Source: Agrococcus beijingensis
Lineage (GTDB): Bacteria > Actinomycetota > Actinomycetes > Actinomycetales > Microbacteriaceae
Direction: 5' to 3'
DNA length: 64,000 bases
NCBI RefSeq assembly: GCF_030758955.1
Contig: NZ_CP132360.1
Span: 1,954,692-2,018,691, forward strand
Below are positions 5,478 to 13,965 of this stretch, piece after piece. The notes below the pieces were generated by a model that was given only the letters and a program-made list of their open reading frames with translations, searched no databases and was not told where the DNA came from. Made by a program: the position numbers and the translations under genes. The first letter of the stretch is position 1. Each line of letters opens with the position of its first letter.

Positions 5478-6848
5478 CTACGCGACGTCGTTGATGCCGT
5501 AGAGCGTGTCGATCGCCGAGAGGAAGTCGTCGTGGCGACCCTCGGCGGCCAGCTGGCGTGCGCGGACCGTCGGCTTGTGCAGCACGACGCCGGCGAAGTG
5601 CCGCAGCGCCTGCTCGGCGAGCCTGCGCTCCTCCTCGGTGCCGCGCTTGCCGATGCGCTGGAGCTCGGCGTGCATGGCCTCCTGCACGTGCTCGCGCAGG
5701 GCGGCGATGGCGGGCCCGAGCCGCTGCTCGGCGGTGCCGCGCTCGAAGCGCTGCGCGGCCTTGCGCACGAGGTCGCGGGCGTCCTCTGTGGCGGTGAGGT
5801 GCTCGAGCGGCGCGTGCAGGCGGATCGTCTCGAGGTCGAGCAGCTGCACGCCGCGCACGGTGGCGACGTCGGGGTCGACGTTGCGCGGCATGCCCATGTC
5901 GACGACGAGCTGCGCCGTCCGCCCGTGCTCGACGGGGCACGAGGCGTCGCCGTGCAGGCCGTCGGGGTGCACCGGGCAGGTGCCGGCGTCGCCGAGGGCG
6001 ACCGGGCAGGCGGATGCGTCGTGGTCGTCGACCTCGTCGCCCGGGAAGGCGTGGGTGGCCGAGAGCTGCGCCCGGCCGGCGCGCAGCAGGGCGGCGTCGA
6101 CCACGTACTCCTCGGCGCTCGTGCAGGTGACGATGACGTCGGCGCTCGCGGCGGCGAGAGCGGCGTCGGGGGGGTCGACGTAGCCGATCGCGTGGCTGCG
6201 GGCGAAGCCCTCGCCGCGGTTCGACGGGCTCCACACCTCGATGTGCGAGGCGCCGCGGCGGCGCAGCTCGGCGAGCGAGACGCCCGCGAAGCGGCCGGTG
6301 CCGACGAGCAGCACGCGGGCGCCGGCGAGGTCGACGCTGCTGCTGGCCAGGTCGAGCGCGAGGCGCACGATCGAGCGGCCCGCCTCGCCGAGCCCGGTGC
6401 GGTTCTTGATGCCACGCTGCGTCTCCGAGGCACGCTGGAAGAGGCGCTCGAGGTCGGGCGAGGTGGTGCCGGCGTCGCGCGCGGAGGCGAGCGCTCGGCG
6501 CACCTGCCCGGCGATCTCGCCCTCGCCGATGACGACCGACTCGAGGCCCGAGGCGACGGCGAAGAGGTGCTCGGCGGCGCGCACGTCGGCGAGCGGCTCG
6601 AGCGACTCCGGGTGGTGGAACCCCAGCGCATCCGCCGCCGCGGTCTGGGCGATGCCGGCCGCATCGTCGGCCTCGGCGTCGACGTCGAGGTAGACCTCGA
6701 AGCGGTTGCAGGTCGAGACGACCACGGCCCCGTCGATCGAGGGGTGCGCGGCGAAGGAGGTGGGCAGCTGCGCGGCGTCGGCGGACGACAGCGCCTCGAG
6801 GGCGGTGAAGTCGGCGTTCCTATGGCTCGCCGTCAGGCAGATGAGCAC
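5478..6848 (-). CDS. hemA: glutamyl-tRNA reductase with a Cys-Pro-Val-rich insertion
   Basis: Reduces glutamyl-tRNA(Glu) to glutamate-1-semialdehyde with NADPH, the first committed step of C5 haem synthesis, in the cytosol. 456 residues. The N-terminal catalytic domain has the nucleophile Cys47 in VVVSTCNRFEVY and the signature GLESVVIGEGEIAGQV (101-116). The Rossmann NADPH site is VLLVGTGRFAG (179-189). The C-terminal dimerisation helices follow residue 365. Unusually, about 45 residues (around 265-310, between the Rossmann strand and VVDMGMPRNVDP) are inserted. They contain three CPV motifs at Cys281, Cys291 and Cys304 with nearby His residues 276, 294, 299 and 308, resembling Cys-Pro haem-regulatory motifs. 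hemA diverges from hemE across a 103-bp region with a perfect 20-bp palindrome. Confidence 0.96.
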   Translation of the reverse strand: MLICLTASHRNADFTALEALSSADAAQLPTSFAAHPSIDGAVVVSTCNRFEVYLDVDAEADDAAGIAQTAAADALGFHHPESLEPLADVRAAEHLFAVASGLESVVIGEGEIAGQVRRALASARDAGTTSPDLERLFQRASETQRGIKNRTGLGEAGRSIVRLALDLASSSVDLAGARVLLVGTGRFAGVSLAELRRRGASHIEVWSPSNRGEGFARSHAIGYVDPPDAALAAASADVIVTCTSAEEYVVDAALLRAGRAQLSATHAFPGDEVDDHDASACPVALGDAGTCPVHPDGLHGDASCPVEHGRTAQLVVDMGMPRNVDPDVATVRGVQLLDLETIRLHAPLEHLTATEDARDLVRKAAQRFERGTAEQRLGPAIAALREHVQEAMHAELQRIGKRGTEEERRLAEQALRHFAGVVLHKPTVRARQLAAEGRHDDFLSAIDTLYGINDVA

Positions 6849-6951: not shown

Positions 6952-8064
6952 ATGCCTGCGCTGCGCGACGATCACCCCCTCCACAGCCGCACGAACGCCT
7001 CCGGGCTGGTGCGGGCGTACCGCGGCGACCGCCCCGAGATCACGCCGGTCTGGTTCATGCGGCAGGCAGGGCGCTCGCTGCCCGAGTACCGCGAGCTGCG
7101 CCAGCGCACCGACCGCCCGGGCCGCAACATGCTCGACACCTGCCTCGACCCGGCGCTCGCGAGCGAGATCACGCTGCAGCCCGTGCGCCGCCACGGCGTC
7201 GACGCGGCCATCTTCTTCAGCGACATCATGGTGCCGCTGCGCCTGGTCGGCGTCGACGTGACGATCGAGCCGGGCGTCGGCCCGGTGATGGGCAGCGCGA
7301 TCCGCACCCCCGAGGACGTCGACCGGCTCGTCGCCCTCGACCCCGCGGTGCTCGACGAGGCGCTCGAGCCCGTGCGCGAGGGCGTGCGCCAGACCGTCGC
7401 GGGCCTCGCCGAGATCGGCGACGGCTCGACGCCGCTGATCGGCTTCGCCGGCGCCCCCTTCACGCTCGCCGCCTACCTGATCGCCGGCCGCCCCTCGAAG
7501 GACCACCTCGAGGCGCGCACGCTCATGCGCTCGCACCCCGATGCCTGGGATCGCCTGAGCCGCTGGGCGGGCGACGTCACCGGCCGGTTCCTGCGCGCGC
7601 AGGTCGAGGAGGGCGCCTCGGCCGCTCAGCTGTTCGACTCGTGGGCGGGCTCGCTGCCGCTCGAGCAGTACCGCGAGCACGTCGCCCCCGCCTCGCGCCT
7701 GGCGCTCGACGCGGTGCGCGACCTCACCGACGCCGCGGGCCGCCGCGTGCCGCTCGTGCACTTCGGCGTCGGCGCCGGCGAGCTCTACAGCGCGATGGAC
7801 CTCGACGTCGACGCGGTCGGCGTCGACTGGCGGGTACCGCTCGACGTGGCGCTCGAGCGCATCGACGCCGACGTGACGGTGCAGGGCAACCTCGACCCGG
7901 CCGTGCTCGGCGCGCCCTGGGAGATCGTCGAGGCGGCCATCGACCACGTCATGATGGCCGGCTCCGTCGCCCGTGCGCACGTGTTCAACCTCGGCCACGG
8001 CGTGCCCCCGACCACCGACCCGGCGGTGCTGACGCGCATCGTGCAGGCGGTGCACGCGCGGTGA
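6952..8064 (+). CDS. hemE: uroporphyrinogen decarboxylase
   Basis: Decarboxylates the four acetate side chains of uroporphyrinogen III to coproporphyrinogen III. 370 residues, the usual size. Signature residues are seen in TPVWFMRQAGRSLPEYREL (31-49, Arg37 and Arg41 bind substrate) and AAIFFSDIMVPL, whose Asp is the essential catalytic residue. GFAGAPFTLAAYLI is the second family signature, and FNLGHGVPPTTDP is the conserved C-terminal motif. The ATG at 6952 has GGAGGTGGG upstream. First gene of a rightward haem operon; its stop overlaps the GTG start of hemY. Confidence 0.97.
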   Translation: MPALRDDHPLHSRTNASGLVRAYRGDRPEITPVWFMRQAGRSLPEYRELRQRTDRPGRNMLDTCLDPALASEITLQPVRRHGVDAAIFFSDIMVPLRLVGVDVTIEPGVGPVMGSAIRTPEDVDRLVALDPAVLDEALEPVREGVRQTVAGLAEIGDGSTPLIGFAGAPFTLAAYLIAGRPSKDHLEARTLMRSHPDAWDRLSRWAGDVTGRFLRAQVEEGASAAQLFDSWAGSLPLEQYREHVAPASRLALDAVRDLTDAAGRRVPLVHFGVGAGELYSAMDLDVDAVGVDWRVPLDVALERIDADVTVQGNLDPAVLGAPWEIVEAAIDHVMMAGSVARAHVFNLGHGVPPTTDPAVLTRIVQAVHAR

Positions 8065-9731
8065 CCGAGGTGCACCCCGAGGCCGTGCACGGGCCTGCGG
8101 ATGCGTCCGCTCCCGAGGGCGCGCCGCGGTACGACACGATCGTGGCCGGCGCGGGCGTCGCGGGGCTGACCGTCGCGCACGAGCTGGCCGGCCGCGGCTA
8201 CCGGGTGCTGGTGCTCGAGGCGTCGGCGCGCCTCGGCGGCGTCGCGAGCCCGCTCGAGCTCGACGGCCTGGTGCTCGACGCGGGCGCGGAGTCGTTCGCG
8301 ACCCGCGGCGGCGCGGTGGCCGAGCTCGCGACCGAGCTGGGCCTGGGCGACGAGATCGTCTCGCCCAACCCCGCGGGCGCCTGGCTGCAGCTGCCCGGCC
8401 GGGCTGCACCGCTGCCGAGGGCGACGCTGCTGGGCATCCCGTCGGTGCCGCTCGCGAAGGACGTCATCGCGGTGCTCGGCTGGGGCGGCGCGCTGCGCGC
8501 CTACGCCGATCGGCTGATGCCGGTGCTGCGCATCGGCTCGTTCGACGCGCTCGGCCCGCTCGTGCGGCGCCGCATGGGGCAGAAGGTGCTCGACCGGCTG
8601 GTCGCGCCGCTCGCCGGCGGCGTCTACTCCGCCGACACCGACCTGCTCGACATCGCGACGGTCGCGCCGGGGCTCAACAACGCCCTGACGCAGGCCGGCT
8701 CGCTGTCGGGCGCGGTCGCGGTGGTGCTCGAGGAGCGCGCCGCGGGCGCCGCGACCGGCAGGGCCGGCTCTGCCGTGCAGGGCATCCGCGGCGGCATCCA
8801 TCGGCTCACCGCCGCGCTCGCGGCCCGCGCCGCCCTGCACCGCGCCGAGCTGCGCACGGGTGTGCGCGTCGAATCGGCCGCGAAGACCGACACCGGCTGG
8901 CTCGTGACGACGGATGCGGGCAGCGTCGCCGCGTCGTCGCTGGTCGTCGCGCTCCCCGAGCGCGAGGCGCGCCGGGTGCTCGCCGACGTCGACGGCTTCG
9001 CGCCGCCGCCCTTCGCGCACAGCCGCGACGCGCAGCCGCTGCGCGACCCGGAGGGCGAGGCCGGTGTCACCGTCGAGCTCGTCACCCTGGTCTTCCCGCC
9101 CGGAGCGATCGAGGGCGACCCGCGCGGCACCGGCGTGCTCGTCGCCGCCGACGCGACCGGCGTGCAGGCGAAGGCGATGACCCACTCGACGGCCAAGTGG
9201 CCGTGGCTGCGCGAGGCGGCCGCCGGCCGCGAGGTCGTGCGGCTCTCCTACGGCTCCGGCATCGCCGCGCCCGCCACCGAGGGCCTCGACGACGCCGCTG
9301 CCGCCGAGCTCGCGCTCGCCGATGCGCGCGCGATCCTGGGGCTCGACCTGCCGCAGCCCGTCGCCAGCGCGCGCGTGCGCTGGGAGCAGGGCCAGCCCTC
9401 GAGCATCGTCGGCGCCCGCGCCCGCCAGCAGGCGCTGCGCGACGCCGCCGCCCCGCACGACACCCTGCTGATCGTCGGCGCTGCCGTCGCGGGCACCGGC
9501 CTCGCGCAGGTCGTGCCCGACGCCCGCAGGGCCTCGCTCGAGATCCGCCGGGAGCGCTTCGCCGTGCCCGGCACCCCCTGGACGACCGACCTCGACGCCG
9601 AGACGAGCGCGCACGACGCGCTGGAGGCATCCGCCGAGCCGCACGCATCCCCTGCGCCCGGCGCAGCCGACCCCGACCACGACCGCACCGCAGGCGCCTC
9701 GAGCGCCGAAGAACCCCGAGGAGACGCATGA
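8061..9731 (+). CDS. hemY: coproporphyrinogen III oxidase, HemY/CgoX type
   Basis: FAD enzyme of the coproporphyrin-dependent pathway that oxidises coproporphyrinogen III to coproporphyrin III using oxygen. 556 residues from the GTG at 8061, which overlaps the hemE stop (GTGA). About 30 residues precede the FAD-binding dinucleotide fold DTIVAGAGVAGLTVAHEL, then LVLEASARLGGVA. A C-terminal motif LLIVGAAVAGTGLAQVV completes the FAD site. The tail after about residue 510 is low-complexity and acidic. The family was long annotated as protoporphyrinogen oxidase (HemG). The neighbouring hemQ and the type of hemH indicate coproporphyrinogen as substrate, an inference from pathway logic. The stop overlaps the hemQ ATG. 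Confidence 0.94.
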   Translation: MTEVHPEAVHGPADASAPEGAPRYDTIVAGAGVAGLTVAHELAGRGYRVLVLEASARLGGVASPLELDGLVLDAGAESFATRGGAVAELATELGLGDEIVSPNPAGAWLQLPGRAAPLPRATLLGIPSVPLAKDVIAVLGWGGALRAYADRLMPVLRIGSFDALGPLVRRRMGQKVLDRLVAPLAGGVYSADTDLLDIATVAPGLNNALTQAGSLSGAVAVVLEERAAGAATGRAGSAVQGIRGGIHRLTAALAARAALHRAELRTGVRVESAAKTDTGWLVTTDAGSVAASSLVVALPEREARRVLADVDGFAPPPFAHSRDAQPLRDPEGEAGVTVELVTLVFPPGAIEGDPRGTGVLVAADATGVQAKAMTHSTAKWPWLREAAAGREVVRLSYGSGIAAPATEGLDDAAAAELALADARAILGLDLPQPVASARVRWEQGQPSSIVGARARQQALRDAAAPHDTLLIVGAAVAGTGLAQVVPDARRASLEIRRERFAVPGTPWTTDLDAETSAHDALEASAEPHASPAPGAADPDHDRTAGASSAEEPRGDA

Positions 9732-10396
9732 GCGAGCAGACGCAGCCGCAGCCGGGCGACGGCTTCACCATCTGGAGCGTGCACAAGCGCGGCACCGCGG
9801 GCACCACGGGCGCATCGCTCGCCGACGAGCTCGCAGCGCTGGCCGCCGAGGGCGTCACCGCGCGCGGCATCTACGACGTCTCGGCGATGCGCGCCGACGC
9901 CGACATCATGGTCTGGCTGCACGGCGGGTCGCCCGAGCAGCTGCAGGCCGCCGTGCGCCGCGTGCGCCGCTCGCGCGAGCTCGCCGGCACCGAGCAGGTG
10001 TGGGGCGCGATGGGCGTCCACCGCGACGCCGAGTTCAACAAGAGCCACGTGCCCGGGTTCCTGCGCGGCATCGAGCCGAAGCGGTGGGTGACCGTCTACC
10101 CCTTCAACCGCTCCTTCGACTGGTACCTGCTGCCCGCAGAGGAGCGCAGCCGCATGCTCGCCGAGCACGGCCGCGCCGGCGCCGCCTACCGCGGCGTCAT
10201 CGCCAACACCGTCGCCGCGTTCGCGCTGGGCGACTACGAGTGGATCCTGCCGCTGGAGAGCGACGAGCTGACCGAGCTGGTCGACATGATGCGCGAGCTG
10301 CGTGCGGTCGACGCGCGCCTCCACGTGCGCGACGAGATCCCGTTCTTCACCGGTCGCCGCATCGCGGTCGACGAGATCGAGGAGGTGCTCGCATGA
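9728..10396 (+). CDS. chdC: coprohaem decarboxylase ChdC (HemQ)
   Basis: Converts iron-coproporphyrin III (coprohaem) to haem b by two hydrogen-peroxide-dependent decarboxylations, the last step of the coproporphyrin route. 222 residues, chlorite-dismutase superfamily. Family motifs are YDVSAMRADADIMVWLHG in the first half, the active-site Tyr in RWVTVYPFNRSFDWYLLP, and the proximal haem His in MLAEHGRAG (about 140). The ATG at 9728 overlaps the hemY stop, and the TGA overlaps the hemH ATG, so hemY-hemQ-hemH are tightly coupled. Actinobacterial ChdC usually has a distal His; I did not assign it here. Confidence 0.96.
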   Translation: MSEQTQPQPGDGFTIWSVHKRGTAGTTGASLADELAALAAEGVTARGIYDVSAMRADADIMVWLHGGSPEQLQAAVRRVRRSRELAGTEQVWGAMGVHRDAEFNKSHVPGFLRGIEPKRWVTVYPFNRSFDWYLLPAEERSRMLAEHGRAGAAYRGVIANTVAAFALGDYEWILPLESDELTELVDMMRELRAVDARLHVRDEIPFFTGRRIAVDEIEEVLA

Positions 10397-11733
10397 GCGA
10401 GTCGATGGACACCGAGCTGATGAGCGCCGCACCGGCCGGCGGCTGCTGCGGCGGAGGCTGCTGCGGCGGCGCCAGCGCCATGGCCGGCGCCGTGCAGTCG
10501 CAGCCCGAACTGCAGCAGGCGGCCCAGCAGGAGGCCCGCCGCGAGACGAAGCCCCCGGCCGCTACCGGCGTGCGCCTCGAGCCCGGTGCAGCGGTGCCGA
10601 GCGCGACGCCCGCCGCGCAGGCCGGCCCCGAGCACGTCGAGGAGCCCGTCGCCTACGACGGCATCCTGCTGTCGGGCTTCGGCGGGCCCGAGGGCCAGGA
10701 CGACGTGATCCCGTTCCTGCGCAACGTCACGCGCGGCCGCGGCATCCCCGACGAGCGGCTCGAAGAGGTCTCGACCCACTACCGCCACTTCGGCGGCGTG
10801 AGCCCCATCAACCAGCAGAACCGCGAGCTGAAGGCGGCGCTCGAGGCGGCGCTCGCCGAGGCCGGCGTCGACCTGCCCGTCTACTGGGGCAACCGCAACT
10901 GGGCGCCCTACCTCGACGAGGCGCTGCAGCAGGCCGCGGCGGCCGGGGCGACGGCGCTGCTCGCGATCCCCACCTCTGCCTACTCCTCGTACTCGTCGTG
11001 CCGTCAGTACCGCGAGGACTGGGCCGACGCGCTCGAGGCGACCGGCCTGCAGGAGTCGCTGTCGATCGACAAGGTGCGCCAGTTCTTCAACCACCCCGGC
11101 TTCCTGGCCCCGTTCGTCGACGGCGTGCGCGGCACGGTCGCCGAGGCGCGCGCCGCGGGCTTCGCGGATGCCGACATCGAGGTGCTCTTCGCGACCCACA
11201 GCATCCCCACCGCCGACGCCGAGCGCTCCGGCGCGCCCGACCTGCACCAGTGGGGCCCGGGCGGCGGCTACGAGGGCCAGCACCTCGCCGCGGCCGAGTG
11301 GGTCATGGGCGAGGCAGCGCCCGACGTCGCCTGGCAGCTCGTCTACCAGTCGCGCTCGGGGCCGGCGTCGCAGCCGTGGCTCGAGCCCGACGTCAATGAC
11401 GCGATCGAGGCGCTCGAGAACCGCAAGGCCGTGGTTATCGTGCCGCTCGGCTTCGTCAGCGACCACATGGAGGTCATGTGGGACCTCGACGAGGAGGCGC
11501 TGGAGACCGCCGAGGAGCACGGACTCTGGGCGCGCCGCGCGCCGACGCCGGGCGTCGACCCGCAGTACGTTGGCGCGCTCGTCGACCTCGTGCAGGAGCG
11601 GCTCGAGGGCCGGCCGACCGCCGAGCGCAAGGCGGTCACCTCGATCCCCGCCTGGTACGACGTCTGCCGCCCCGGCTGCTGCGAGAACCCGCGCCTCGGC
11701 TTCCGGCCCGCGATCGCCGGGCTGCAGCCGTGA
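10393..11733 (+). CDS. cpfC: coproporphyrin ferrochelatase, Fe-S type, with Cys-rich N-terminal extension
   Basis: Inserts Fe(II) into coproporphyrin III to give coprohaem, the substrate of ChdC. 446 residues, longer than usual because about 85 residues precede the ferrochelatase domain, which begins YDGILLSGFGGPEG. Catalytic His269 lies in LFATHSIP, and the acidic helix VSDHMEVMWDLDEEA carries the conserved Glu. Cys203 (AYSSYSSCRQYRED) and Cys425, Cys429 and Cys430 (YDVCRPGCCENPR) match the [2Fe-2S]-binding set known from actinobacterial enzymes. The extension begins with the unusual stretch GGCCGGGCCGGA (Cys18, 19, 23, 24), then an Ala/Gln/Glu-rich linker; its function is unknown, and metal binding is only a suggestion. 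Confidence 0.95.
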   Translation: MSESMDTELMSAAPAGGCCGGGCCGGASAMAGAVQSQPELQQAAQQEARRETKPPAATGVRLEPGAAVPSATPAAQAGPEHVEEPVAYDGILLSGFGGPEGQDDVIPFLRNVTRGRGIPDERLEEVSTHYRHFGGVSPINQQNRELKAALEAALAEAGVDLPVYWGNRNWAPYLDEALQQAAAAGATALLAIPTSAYSSYSSCRQYREDWADALEATGLQESLSIDKVRQFFNHPGFLAPFVDGVRGTVAEARAAGFADADIEVLFATHSIPTADAERSGAPDLHQWGPGGGYEGQHLAAAEWVMGEAAPDVAWQLVYQSRSGPASQPWLEPDVNDAIEALENRKAVVIVPLGFVSDHMEVMWDLDEEALETAEEHGLWARRAPTPGVDPQYVGALVDLVQERLEGRPTAERKAVTSIPAWYDVCRPGCCENPRLGFRPAIAGLQP

Positions 11734-11765
11734 GCGCGGTGCGCGTCTGCACCCCCGGCCGCCCG

Positions 11766-11861
11766 GTGCACAACGCAAGCTCCAGCGCGGCGAACCGCGG
11801 CGCATGGGCCCGTGCTGCCGCGACCGCCGCGGATCCCGCTGGCCGGGCTTGCGTTGTGCAC
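11766..11861. repeat. 96-bp inverted-repeat element, copy 1
   Basis: GTGCACAACGCAAGC (11766-11780) is repeated as its exact complement GCTTGCGTTGTGCAC (11847-11861), giving 15-bp terminal arms around a 66-bp GC-rich core. It fills most of the 139-bp gap between hemH and hemC. The same terminal sequence occurs at 29604-29695 with a different core. No ORF is likely inside. It could be a small non-autonomous element or a dispersed regulatory hairpin. Confidence 0.85.
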
Positions 11862-11872
11862 GGGGGTGCGCG

Positions 11873-12832
11873 ATGAGCGTCGTGCGGGTCGGCACCCGCG
11901 GCTCGGCGCTCGCGATGGCGCAGACGAAGGCGCTCGCCGCGCGCTTCGCGGGCGAGGTCGAGATCGTCGAGATCACCACGAAGGGCGACGTGGACCGCTC
12001 GTCGCTGCAGCAGCTCGGCGGCACCGGGGTCTTCGTCTCGGCGCTGCGCGACGCGCTGCTCGACGGCACCGTCGATGTGGCCGTGCACTCGATGAAGGAT
12101 CTGCCGACCGCGCCGGCCGCCGGCATCGAGCTGGCCGCCGTCACCAAGCGCGAGGACGCCCGCGACGCGCTCTGCGCCCGCGACGGCCTGACGCTCGCCG
12201 AGCTGCCCGAGGGCGCGAAGGTGGGCACCGGCTCGCCGCGCCGCATGGCGCAGCTGCGGCTGGCCCGCCCCGACCTCGAGATCGTCGACATCCGCGGCAA
12301 CGTGCCCACGCGCCTCGCCCGCGCGCAGGGCGACCCCGAGACGGGCGAGGGCGCCGACCTCGACGCGGTCGTGCTCGCGCTCGCGGGGCTGCGCCGGCTC
12401 GGGCTCGACGGCCACGCGACCGAGATCCTCGACCTCATCGACTTCCCGACCGCGCCCGCCCAGGGCGCGCTCGCGGTCGAGATCCGCGAGGGCGACGCGG
12501 TCGCGCGCGCGGCGGTGACGAAGACCGACCACGCGTCGACGCGGGCCGCCGCCGACGCCGAGCGCCGCGTGCTCGCGGGGCTCGAGGCCGGCTGCGCCGC
12601 GCCGCTCGCCGCCAGCGCCGAGGTCGTCGACGGGATGCTCTTCCTCACCGCGATCGCGTACGCGACCGACGGGTCGAGGCGACTGAGCGCATCCCACGCC
12701 TACACGCTCGACTCGACGAAGCCGGCCGAGCTGGCCGAGGCCGCCCGCGACGTCGCCGAGCGCGCCGTCACCGAGCTGCTCGACGGCGGCGCGGCGGCGC
12801 TGGTGCACGAGGCCCGCGAGCCTCGCGGCTGA
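11873..12832 (+). CDS. hemC: hydroxymethylbilane synthase (porphobilinogen deaminase)
   Basis: Polymerises four porphobilinogens into the linear tetrapyrrole hydroxymethylbilane. 319 residues, normal length. The domain starts VVRVGTRGSALAMAQT. DVAVHSMKDLP holds conserved substrate contacts, and VGTGSPRRMAQL and IRGNVPTRLAR bind the acidic chain. Cys241 in GLEAGCAAPLAA anchors the dipyrromethane cofactor. The ATG at 11873 has only a weak ribosome-binding site and lies just after the inverted-repeat element that separates it from hemH. It is followed by a small membrane protein and hemD. Confidence 0.97.
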   Translation: MSVVRVGTRGSALAMAQTKALAARFAGEVEIVEITTKGDVDRSSLQQLGGTGVFVSALRDALLDGTVDVAVHSMKDLPTAPAAGIELAAVTKREDARDALCARDGLTLAELPEGAKVGTGSPRRMAQLRLARPDLEIVDIRGNVPTRLARAQGDPETGEGADLDAVVLALAGLRRLGLDGHATEILDLIDFPTAPAQGALAVEIREGDAVARAAVTKTDHASTRAAADAERRVLAGLEAGCAAPLAASAEVVDGMLFLTAIAYATDGSRRLSASHAYTLDSTKPAELAEAARDVAERAVTELLDGGAAALVHEAREPRG

Positions 12833-12871
12833 AGCAGCGGGATCGCGGCCGGCGTCCCGTAGTTTTGGCGC

Positions 12872-13078
12872 ATGCGCACCATCGCCACCGTCCTCGCCGG
12901 CGTCAGCCTCATCTGCGTCGGGCTCGTGCTGTTCGGGGCGGCAGGCGTCGAGCGGTCGATCGTCGCCGCGATCACCTGCGCGATCCTGGCGGTGGCGTTC
13001 GCGGTGCTCTCCCTGCGCAGCCCGGCGGCCGAGGCGGACCCCGTGCGGGCGCCCGTCGAGGGCGAGCGAACTGCCTGA
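12872..13078 (+). CDS. small two-span membrane protein between hemC and hemD
   Basis: 68 residues with two hydrophobic segments (IATVLAGVSLICVGLVLFGA and IVAAITCAILAVAFAVLSL) and a charged C-terminus. I recognise no family. It sits 39 bp after hemC and 74 bp before hemD on the same strand. TAGTTT 20-25 bp upstream could be part of a -10 element. Function unknown; position alone does not prove a haem role. Confidence 0.65.
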   Translation: MRTIATVLAGVSLICVGLVLFGAAGVERSIVAAITCAILAVAFAVLSLRSPAAEADPVRAPVEGERTA

Positions 13079-13152
13079 CTCGCCCCGCCCGTGACGAGCG
13101 CGGCCGCACCGGCCTGGTTGAATGCCAGGACGCATCCGACCCGGGAGGAACC

Positions 13153-13965
13153 ATGCGAGTCCTGATCCCCCGTGGCGGCAGCTGGGGCGACGACGTCGCC
13201 CGGCTCGTCACCGACGCCGGCTTCGAGCCGCTCATCCTGCCGCTCGTCACCATCGAGCCCGCAGACGACCAGGAGCACCTGCAACGGGTGCTCGGCCAGC
13301 TGTCGGAGGGCCGCTTCGACTGGCTCGTCGTCACCAGCCAGTCGACCGTGCGCGTGCTGCCGCGTGTGCCCGCATCGGTGCACGTCGCCGCCGTGGGCGC
13401 CGTCACCGCGGCCTCGCTGCGCGAGCGCGGGGTGCCGGTGGGCTTCATCCCGACGAAGCAGTCGGCGGCGGGGCTGGTCGACGAGTGGCCGATCCGCGAG
13501 GGCCGCGTGCTCTGGCCGCACGCGCTCGACGCGCGCCCCACGATCGCCGACGGGCTGCGCCAGCACGGCATGCAGGTGACCGAGGTGGTCGCCTATCAGA
13601 CGGTGCCCGTCTACGAGTCGGGGCGCGAGCTCGTCGAGGCGATCACCGGCAGCATGCCCATCATCGATGCGGATGCGCTGCGGCAGCAGGAGGAGCTCCA
13701 GGCGGCCGGGGAGGACGGTGCGGATGCGGTGCTCACCGCCGTCGAGCCGGCCGAGACGCCGATCGACGCGGTGCTCGTGACCTCGGGATCGGTCGCGAAG
13801 CAGGTGGCGCGGCTGGGGCTCGCCACCGACACGCGGATCATCGCGATCGGCGAGCAGACCGCCGAGGACTGCCGCAAGTACGGCCTGCGGGTCGCGGCAG
13901 TGGCGAAGCAGCCGAACCCGACGGCGCTGGTGGCGGCGCTGGCGACGACGGCGCCGCGGCCCTGA
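13153..13965 (+). CDS. hemD: uroporphyrinogen-III synthase
   Basis: Cyclises hydroxymethylbilane with ring-D inversion to uroporphyrinogen III. 270 residues. The family is poorly conserved, but the two-lobed pattern is clear: MRVLIPRGGSWGDDVARLVTDAG at the start, DWLVVTSQSTVRVLP in lobe 2, VAYQTVPVY at the return, and AVLVTSGSVAKQVA then IAIGEQTAEDCRKYGL near the end. The ATG at 13153 is preceded by GGGAGGAA. Between the halves is an extra Ala/Glu/Gln-rich segment of about 30 residues (around 175-205) not typical of the family. Last gene of the first haem block. Confidence 0.9.
   Translation: MRVLIPRGGSWGDDVARLVTDAGFEPLILPLVTIEPADDQEHLQRVLGQLSEGRFDWLVVTSQSTVRVLPRVPASVHVAAVGAVTAASLRERGVPVGFIPTKQSAAGLVDEWPIREGRVLWPHALDARPTIADGLRQHGMQVTEVVAYQTVPVYESGRELVEAITGSMPIIDADALRQQEELQAAGEDGADAVLTAVEPAETPIDAVLVTSGSVAKQVARLGLATDTRIIAIGEQTAEDCRKYGLRVAAVAKQPNPTALVAALATTAPRP

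Follow-up and report, generated by a model that had tools for sequence, protein, structure and literature searches.

The hemA gene and haem cluster of the window

We analysed a stretch of 64,000 nucleotides from Agrococcus beijingensis (contig NZ_CP132360.1; referred to from here on as the window), in which hemA, encoding glutamyl-tRNA reductase (GluTR), is read divergently from the remaining genes of a haem cluster (Table 1). The latter comprise hemE, genes for a protoporphyrinogen/coproporphyrinogen oxidase, HemQ/ChdC (the actinobacterial HemQ) and ferrochelatase, hemC, and a uroporphyrinogen-III synthase gene whose product scores under every curated cut-off; this gene content suggests the coproporphyrin-dependent route. 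By Pfam and NCBIfam, the HemA of the window is a full GluTR: the GlutR_N, Shikimate_DH and GlutR_dimer domains were each found over their Pfam cut-offs, giving the three-domain architecture, and NF000750 (glutamyl-tRNA reductase) matched with 428 bits against a cut-off of 289. Further, Cys47 is the counterpart of E. coli HemA Cys50, which we take to be the catalytic cysteine. For comparison with relatives, we used the best 120 of 3772 homologues scored at E ≤ 0.001, and Agrococcus sediminis was the closest named homologue among the matches listed (84% identity). We note that 65 of 398 Microbacteriaceae genomes, several of them small but otherwise complete, gave no HemA match with a single-protein query; some of these 65 may be without haem synthesis.

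Table 1. Features of the hemA locus and haem cluster (positions are those of the window)
Feature	Position	Strand	Basis
hemA, glutamyl-tRNA reductase, 456 aa, GTG start	5478..6848	-	ORF; Pfam and NCBIfam matches over cut-off; homologues
Cys47, aligned with the conserved STCNR/TCNR cysteine (E. coli Cys50)	6708..6710	-	alignment; marks GluTR membership
Hypervariable loop, residues 260-312, from the last helix of the NADPH-binding domain to strand QLVVDMG	5913..6071	-	alignment to relatives and E. coli HemA; helix and strand predicted
CPV unit 1 (Cys281-Pro-Val; Cys codon 6006-6008)	6000..6008	-	sequence
CPV unit 2 (Cys291-Pro-Val, then His294; Cys codon 5976-5978)	5970..5978	-	sequence
CPV unit 3, form CPVEH (Cys304...His308; Cys codon 5937-5939)	5925..5939	-	sequence; loop comparison
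Conserved strand and motif QLVVDMGMPRNVDP, directly after the loop	5871..5912	-	alignment
Haem cluster: hemA	5478-6848	-	
Haem cluster: remaining haem genes	6952-13965	+	
Ferrochelatase; Gln-rich N-terminal tail with GGCCGGGCCGG	10393-11733; tail about 10441-10473	+	

A long loop with three CPV units in HemA

The window HemA has 53 residues in the loop where E. coli K-12 HemA has 7. The first-pass annotation of this DNA, which had proposed about 45 extra residues (about 265-310) after the NADPH domain, is thus borne out with the borders at residues 260-312, the loop being placed between helix and strand by alignment alone (both are predicted from the sequence). The same annotation put three CPV units at Cys281, Cys291 and Cys304, exactly where the sequence has them, but its count of four histidines in the insertion has to be raised to five (His 266, 276, 294, 299 and 308). 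CxxC is not present in the loop. Across the two strands of the window, at least two CP[VILM] within 60 residues occurred in just two of the stop-to-stop frames of 100 codons or more: HemA and one of 115 codons, which is probably no gene. Cys-Pro (CP) was absent from the HemE, HemY, ChdC, HemC, HemD and CpfC frames of the window's haem cluster.

CP loops are widespread among close relatives

The annotation had asked whether the insert and its cysteines are conserved in close relatives, and the idea survived this check: the loop carries CP in 103 of the 120 best homologues (of 3772), with one unit in 58, two in 12 and three in 33. An insert private to this strain is ruled out by its presence across relatives. 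In the top 43 entries of the homologue list, window protein included, the loop is 46-101 residues long and has two CP in 10 entries and three in 33; this group is our own cut, the next entry (P0044, 60% identity) being without CP. Agrococcus pullicola and a record of A. casei have one CP each, and the range within Agrococcus is one to three. Among named loci (the best 80 of 557 encoding a relative), 70 have CP, 60 of them one, 1 two and 9 three.

Because the homologue list and the named loci represent the nearest relatives, Microbacteriaceae were also sampled by genus. A readable loop was available for 73 coded genera (126 rows; coded loci L046, L246 and L260 stand outside these counts), and at least one row had CP in 16 of them, four of which were mixed. 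No sampled row had CP in the other 57 genera; 48 of these have only loops shorter than 10 residues, and nine have a loop of at least 10. Named CP carriers include Agrococcus, Plantibacter, Cryobacterium, Glaciibacter, Okibacterium, Mycetocola and Labedella, and only part of Agromyces and of Microbacterium carries CP. We found no CP in 27 readable rows (28 aligned) from other families of the order, L086 and L100 not being counted.

The descent of the CP trait was followed on a HemA tree of 147 rows from which the loop was left out, a quick tree with 33 of its 135 inner branches open. All CP rows save one fall into a single Microbacteriaceae clade (SH-aLRT 97) of 74 rows, 58 with CP and 16 without. 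The outlier, L230, is a frame-shifted HemA whose CP is an artefact, and the CP label requires eight changes on the tree with this row and seven without it. Short loops are found in three CP-less groups, namely Compostimonas, g46, and Leifsonia Root4 with g63. One gain followed by several losses is the simplest reading of the trait; change counts alone cannot separate gain from loss. With regard to L230 itself (genome G009, 86% complete, 5% contamination), we note that its HemA is split over different frames, either by sequencing error or because the gene has decayed.

The Cys-Pro unit looks to be under selection

We assembled 165 dereplicated family proteins and delimited their loops by alignment, leaving out L230 and E. 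coli. Of the 101 loops with at least 10 residues, 77 have CP and 24 do not, the latter including Agromyces loops with zero Cys. Proline follows the cysteine in 110 of 116 cases, compared with a mean of 13.7 and a maximum of 28 in 2000 per-loop shuffles; the rows are related by descent, and hence we attach no probability to this comparison. The six cysteines outside CP belong to P0011, P0045, P0049, L060, L202 and L235; beyond the dereplicated set, L028 reads ACS and L249, with a loop shorter than 10 residues, reads GCAES. The last CP is followed by V in 57 of the 77 loops and by I in another 8 (V or I in 65), and His stands at +4 from the Cys in 31. The other positions around the last CP hold 0.7-1.5 bits, and +3 is free. 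When all units are taken together, 62 of 110 have a His within +2 to +6 of the Cys, and many (in Cryobacterium, Agromyces and several Microbacterium) have no His at +4.

We compared this with the remainder of the loop, CP being removed. At 45-55% core identity, loop identity was 0.34 versus 0.33 for shuffled loops (516 pairs); at 55-65%, it was 0.37 versus 0.36 (829 pairs); and at 75-90%, where the proteins are closer, more of the loop was shared, at 0.49 versus 0.33 (58 pairs). Because the rows were picked for having CP, these values measure the drift of the remainder and not the rate of CP loss (16 of the 74 clade rows are without CP). A single CP is kept across many other Microbacteriaceae genera while the rest of the loop is near saturated with change, and the Cys-Pro unit of the HemA loop looks, as far as these alignments go, to be under selection. 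A loop of low complexity and no function, in which descent or the expansion of repeats accounts for CP, would be in keeping with the richness of the loops in Ala, Gly and Pro, and with about one origin of CP in the family, which means that the rows are not independent. However, the 110 of 116 cysteines in CP, set against the shuffles, and the shuffle-level identity outside CP in distant loops that keep it (rows chosen for CP, as stated) disfavour chance or a low-complexity artefact, and we regard absence of function as very improbable. The retention of the unit points to selection on CP, which is in itself no demonstration of haem.

Selection of this kind could also act on contacts between proteins. 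A short unit kept in a near-saturated loop (46-101 residues in the top 43) is what a linear motif usually looks like, and CPV or CPVxH on a flexible tether might dock a partner (GSA aminomutase, glutamyl-tRNA synthetase or a protease adaptor); the Cys would then serve fit and not chemistry. Two or three copies, as in most Agrococcus, would raise avidity, and a complex of GtrR with glutamyl-tRNA synthetase in M. tuberculosis is described in the part of PMC10991733 consulted here. With +3 free and flanks of about 1 bit each, however, the conserved surface would come down to C-P-V plus sometimes His. Cys is moreover a rare choice for docking motifs, and we consider docking unlikely.

The proximity of two or three cysteines in most Agrococcus also brings a thiol switch to mind, in which loop cysteines, oxidized or thiolated, and paired within the loop in Agrococcus, would signal redox or nitric-oxide stress to the haem pathway. 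A review of thiol control of plant tetrapyrrole enzymes has GluTR among its most frequent terms (PMC3778395, seen in extract). Most CP-bearing relatives outside Agrococcus, however, have a single CP in the loop, and a thiol switch leaves the near-fixed Pro (110 of 116) unexplained; we think it quite unlikely.

A putative haem sensor in the loop

The role in which Cys-Pro units are best known is that of haem-regulatory motifs, and GluTR is a known point of control. We propose, tentatively and at somewhat less than even chances, that the CP units of the loop are haem-regulatory motifs, haem sensing being in our judgement the best single explanation of the sequence pattern. The loop, its position, its variability and its retention of CP are observed. 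From these, the loop would act as a tether, presumably flexible, that displays one to three Cys-Pro units; when free haem accumulates, ferric haem would be bound by a CP cysteine, and the His at +4, where there is one, might often serve as second ligand or hand-over site. The haem-loaded loop might then either lower GluTR activity or tag the enzyme for an ATP-dependent protease, and less 5-aminolevulinate would be made.

Several features of the loop agree with such motifs. A conserved Cys-Pro is present, three times in the window, and the loop forms GCPVDHD, GCPVNHD and CPVEH fit the picture of a haem-regulatory motif, as does the predicted location between helix and strand. In mammalian haem-binding proteins, the CP motifs are mostly found in loops that join secondary-structure elements, and aliphatic residues precede the Cys (PMC10377097, in extract); A, V, I or L stands within four residues before the Cys in 96 of our 110 units, although this lends weak support because Ala is common in these loops. 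The contrast on a disorder scale was small and is not relied upon.

Charge tells in the other direction. Negative net charge of haem-binding nonapeptides is unfavourable, as a peptide tendency (PMC6356037), and the three CP nonapeptides of the window carry net charges of -1, -1 and -2, where that tendency, which is not a strict rule, would have them not negative. In the family, 53 of 110 CP nonapeptides are negative, 43 zero and 14 positive. Within CP loops, 42% of the 9-mers without CP and 48% of those with CP are negative, indicating that CP is not placed in basic surroundings. The many units with no His at +4, and the 24 longer loops and 57 coded genera in which CP is missing, likewise speak against haem sensing. 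The acidic charge of the window units thus appears unfavourable to haem binding. It would be better suited to a metal ion, and the Cys and His of the loop (CPVxH and the other loop His, with a His between +2 and +6 in 62 of 110 units) might form a site for Fe(II), Zn(II) or an Fe-S cluster; iron, not haem, would then gate the pathway. Most relatives, however, offer one Cys and often no near His, leaving few ligands unless two subunits share a site, and the window loop is without CxxC; we hold a metal site to be distinctly unlikely.

In favour of the proposal, GluTR is under haem control in other organisms, and M. tuberculosis GtrR is a haem-binding protein, although feedback in mycobacteria is no more than a suggestion in the consulted part of PMC10991733. 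Binding of haem by a GluTR need not mean feedback: S. aureus GtrR also binds haem, yet haem homeostasis was the same when this binding was lost (PMC10991733). The same review describes mycobacterial GtrR as pupylated, its level rising more than 2-fold without Pup (PMC10991733). In the Agrococcus genome, we found no match to the Pup ligase family PF03136 (in the control, 1 of 14 genomes matched, that of C. glutamicum), and GluTR turnover would therefore need a protease other than the pupylation route, which we set aside as a route of HemA degradation on this ground.

Comparison with known systems of haem control

The proposed sensor shares its Cys-Pro units, their place in a loop or flexible region and a link to haem synthesis with the CP haem-regulatory motifs of the ALAS1 leader, Irr, IRP2 and BACH2, as far as the extracts consulted describe them. 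The ALAS1 leader has three CP motifs according to the part of PMC6154995 used here, and the CP haem motif given for bacterial Irr, Gly-Cys-Pro-Trp-His-Asp, resembles the loop forms GCPVDHD and GCPVNHD (PMC11442138, in extract). Unlike in these four proteins, the putative motif lies in an internal loop of GluTR, and the units of the window are net acidic.

Salmonella HemA is the same enzyme and, as proposed for the window HemA, has a cysteine as haem ligand: in the portion of PMC5801465 consulted, Cys170 is the haem ligand in control of the enzyme level, together with Lon and ClpAP. In the window HemA, however, Leu165 stands at the aligned place (E. coli K-12 numbering), which rules out an equivalent of Cys170, and the loop cysteines lie in another part of the protein. 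Caulobacter ALAS is described, in the part of PMC6154995 that we draw on, as inactivated by haem through His340/Cys398 of each subunit, a feedback site. It resembles the window HemA in being the first committed enzyme of its pathway, and its His and Cys haem ligands (PMC6154995, same part) recall the candidate ligands of the loop; it differs in being an unrelated enzyme of the Shemin route whose site is not presented there as a CP loop.

In actinobacteria, the limitation by haem of its own synthesis at GluTR is little known; for corynebacteria, PMC10991733, as far as consulted, gives a transcriptional control of haem synthesis by haem. No publication on this HemA loop was found by title and start of abstract in the literature searched, to the scope of which most subscription journals do not belong. 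Haem feedback on GluTR could be tested directly with a loop that can be removed, carries one to three discrete units and is present in some related genera but absent from others; such a loop would also offer a handle on strains producing haem or 5-aminolevulinate.

A second CP insert at the same turn in Streptomyces

Our survey of GluTR loops covered actinobacteria plus E. coli. In a phylum sample (loci L262-L310), the loop was obtained in 33 of 49, and CP occurred in 4 loops, all Streptomyces-like, and in none of the 27 other rows. These four are among the six rows of genus code f20, g172, and have 151-171 residues with one CP between the same anchors that enclose 87 in the window protein; L292, of this group, shares 98% identity with a named Streptomyces protein. 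We then examined the 120 nearest listed relatives of L292, in which the loop was read in 119 and CP was found in 118, mostly as DE(N/D/G)CPLD; this set is the best 120 of at least 8000 candidates, with 83-98% identity, and hence little about deep conservation can be read from its CP count. The net charge of the Streptomyces CPL nonapeptides (n = 119) is -3 or -4 throughout, still less favourable to haem binding than in the window by the peptide tendency of PMC6356037.

The Streptomyces insert (CPL[DE]) is like the window loop in its turn and in bearing CP, here a single unit, and unlike the Microbacteriaceae loop in being longer, mostly conserved among near relatives and strongly acidic around the CP. 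The two show no likeness by eye, and the insert probably has an origin separate from that of the Microbacteriaceae loop; with it, this turn of GluTR is seen to carry a Cys-Pro unit in a second group. As evidence, the Streptomyces case is the weaker one, because the insert is mostly conserved and near-identical sequences dominate the set, and we think haem binding less likely for it than for the Microbacteriaceae loop. That a built-in haem sensor was gained twice at the same turn of GluTR, once as the Microbacteriaceae CP tether (with three units in most Agrococcus) and once as the Streptomyces insert, we consider doubtful, though worth entertaining. If true, the double gain would provide direct feedback at the committed step without the need for HrrSA, HemX or Cys170.

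Cysteines in ferrochelatase tails

The ferrochelatase tail reads CCGGG in 21 of 24 Agrococcus loci, the exceptions being L332-L334, and CC was found in none of the tails of 33 readable loci (of 35) from other genera and families. The Cys-rich tail may therefore be an Agrococcus feature, in which case added cysteines would be present in both the first enzyme and ferrochelatase. CP units may also occur in ferrochelatase tails. In L356 and L369, CP is found in the tail region, probably upstream of the start codon. L354 (g85), whose HemA loop has CP, reads NDSCPVPF in the ferrochelatase tail, and in L332, an Agrococcus that lacks the CCGG tail, this region reads DDACPLD, of the acidic CPLD kind seen in the Streptomyces HemA insert.
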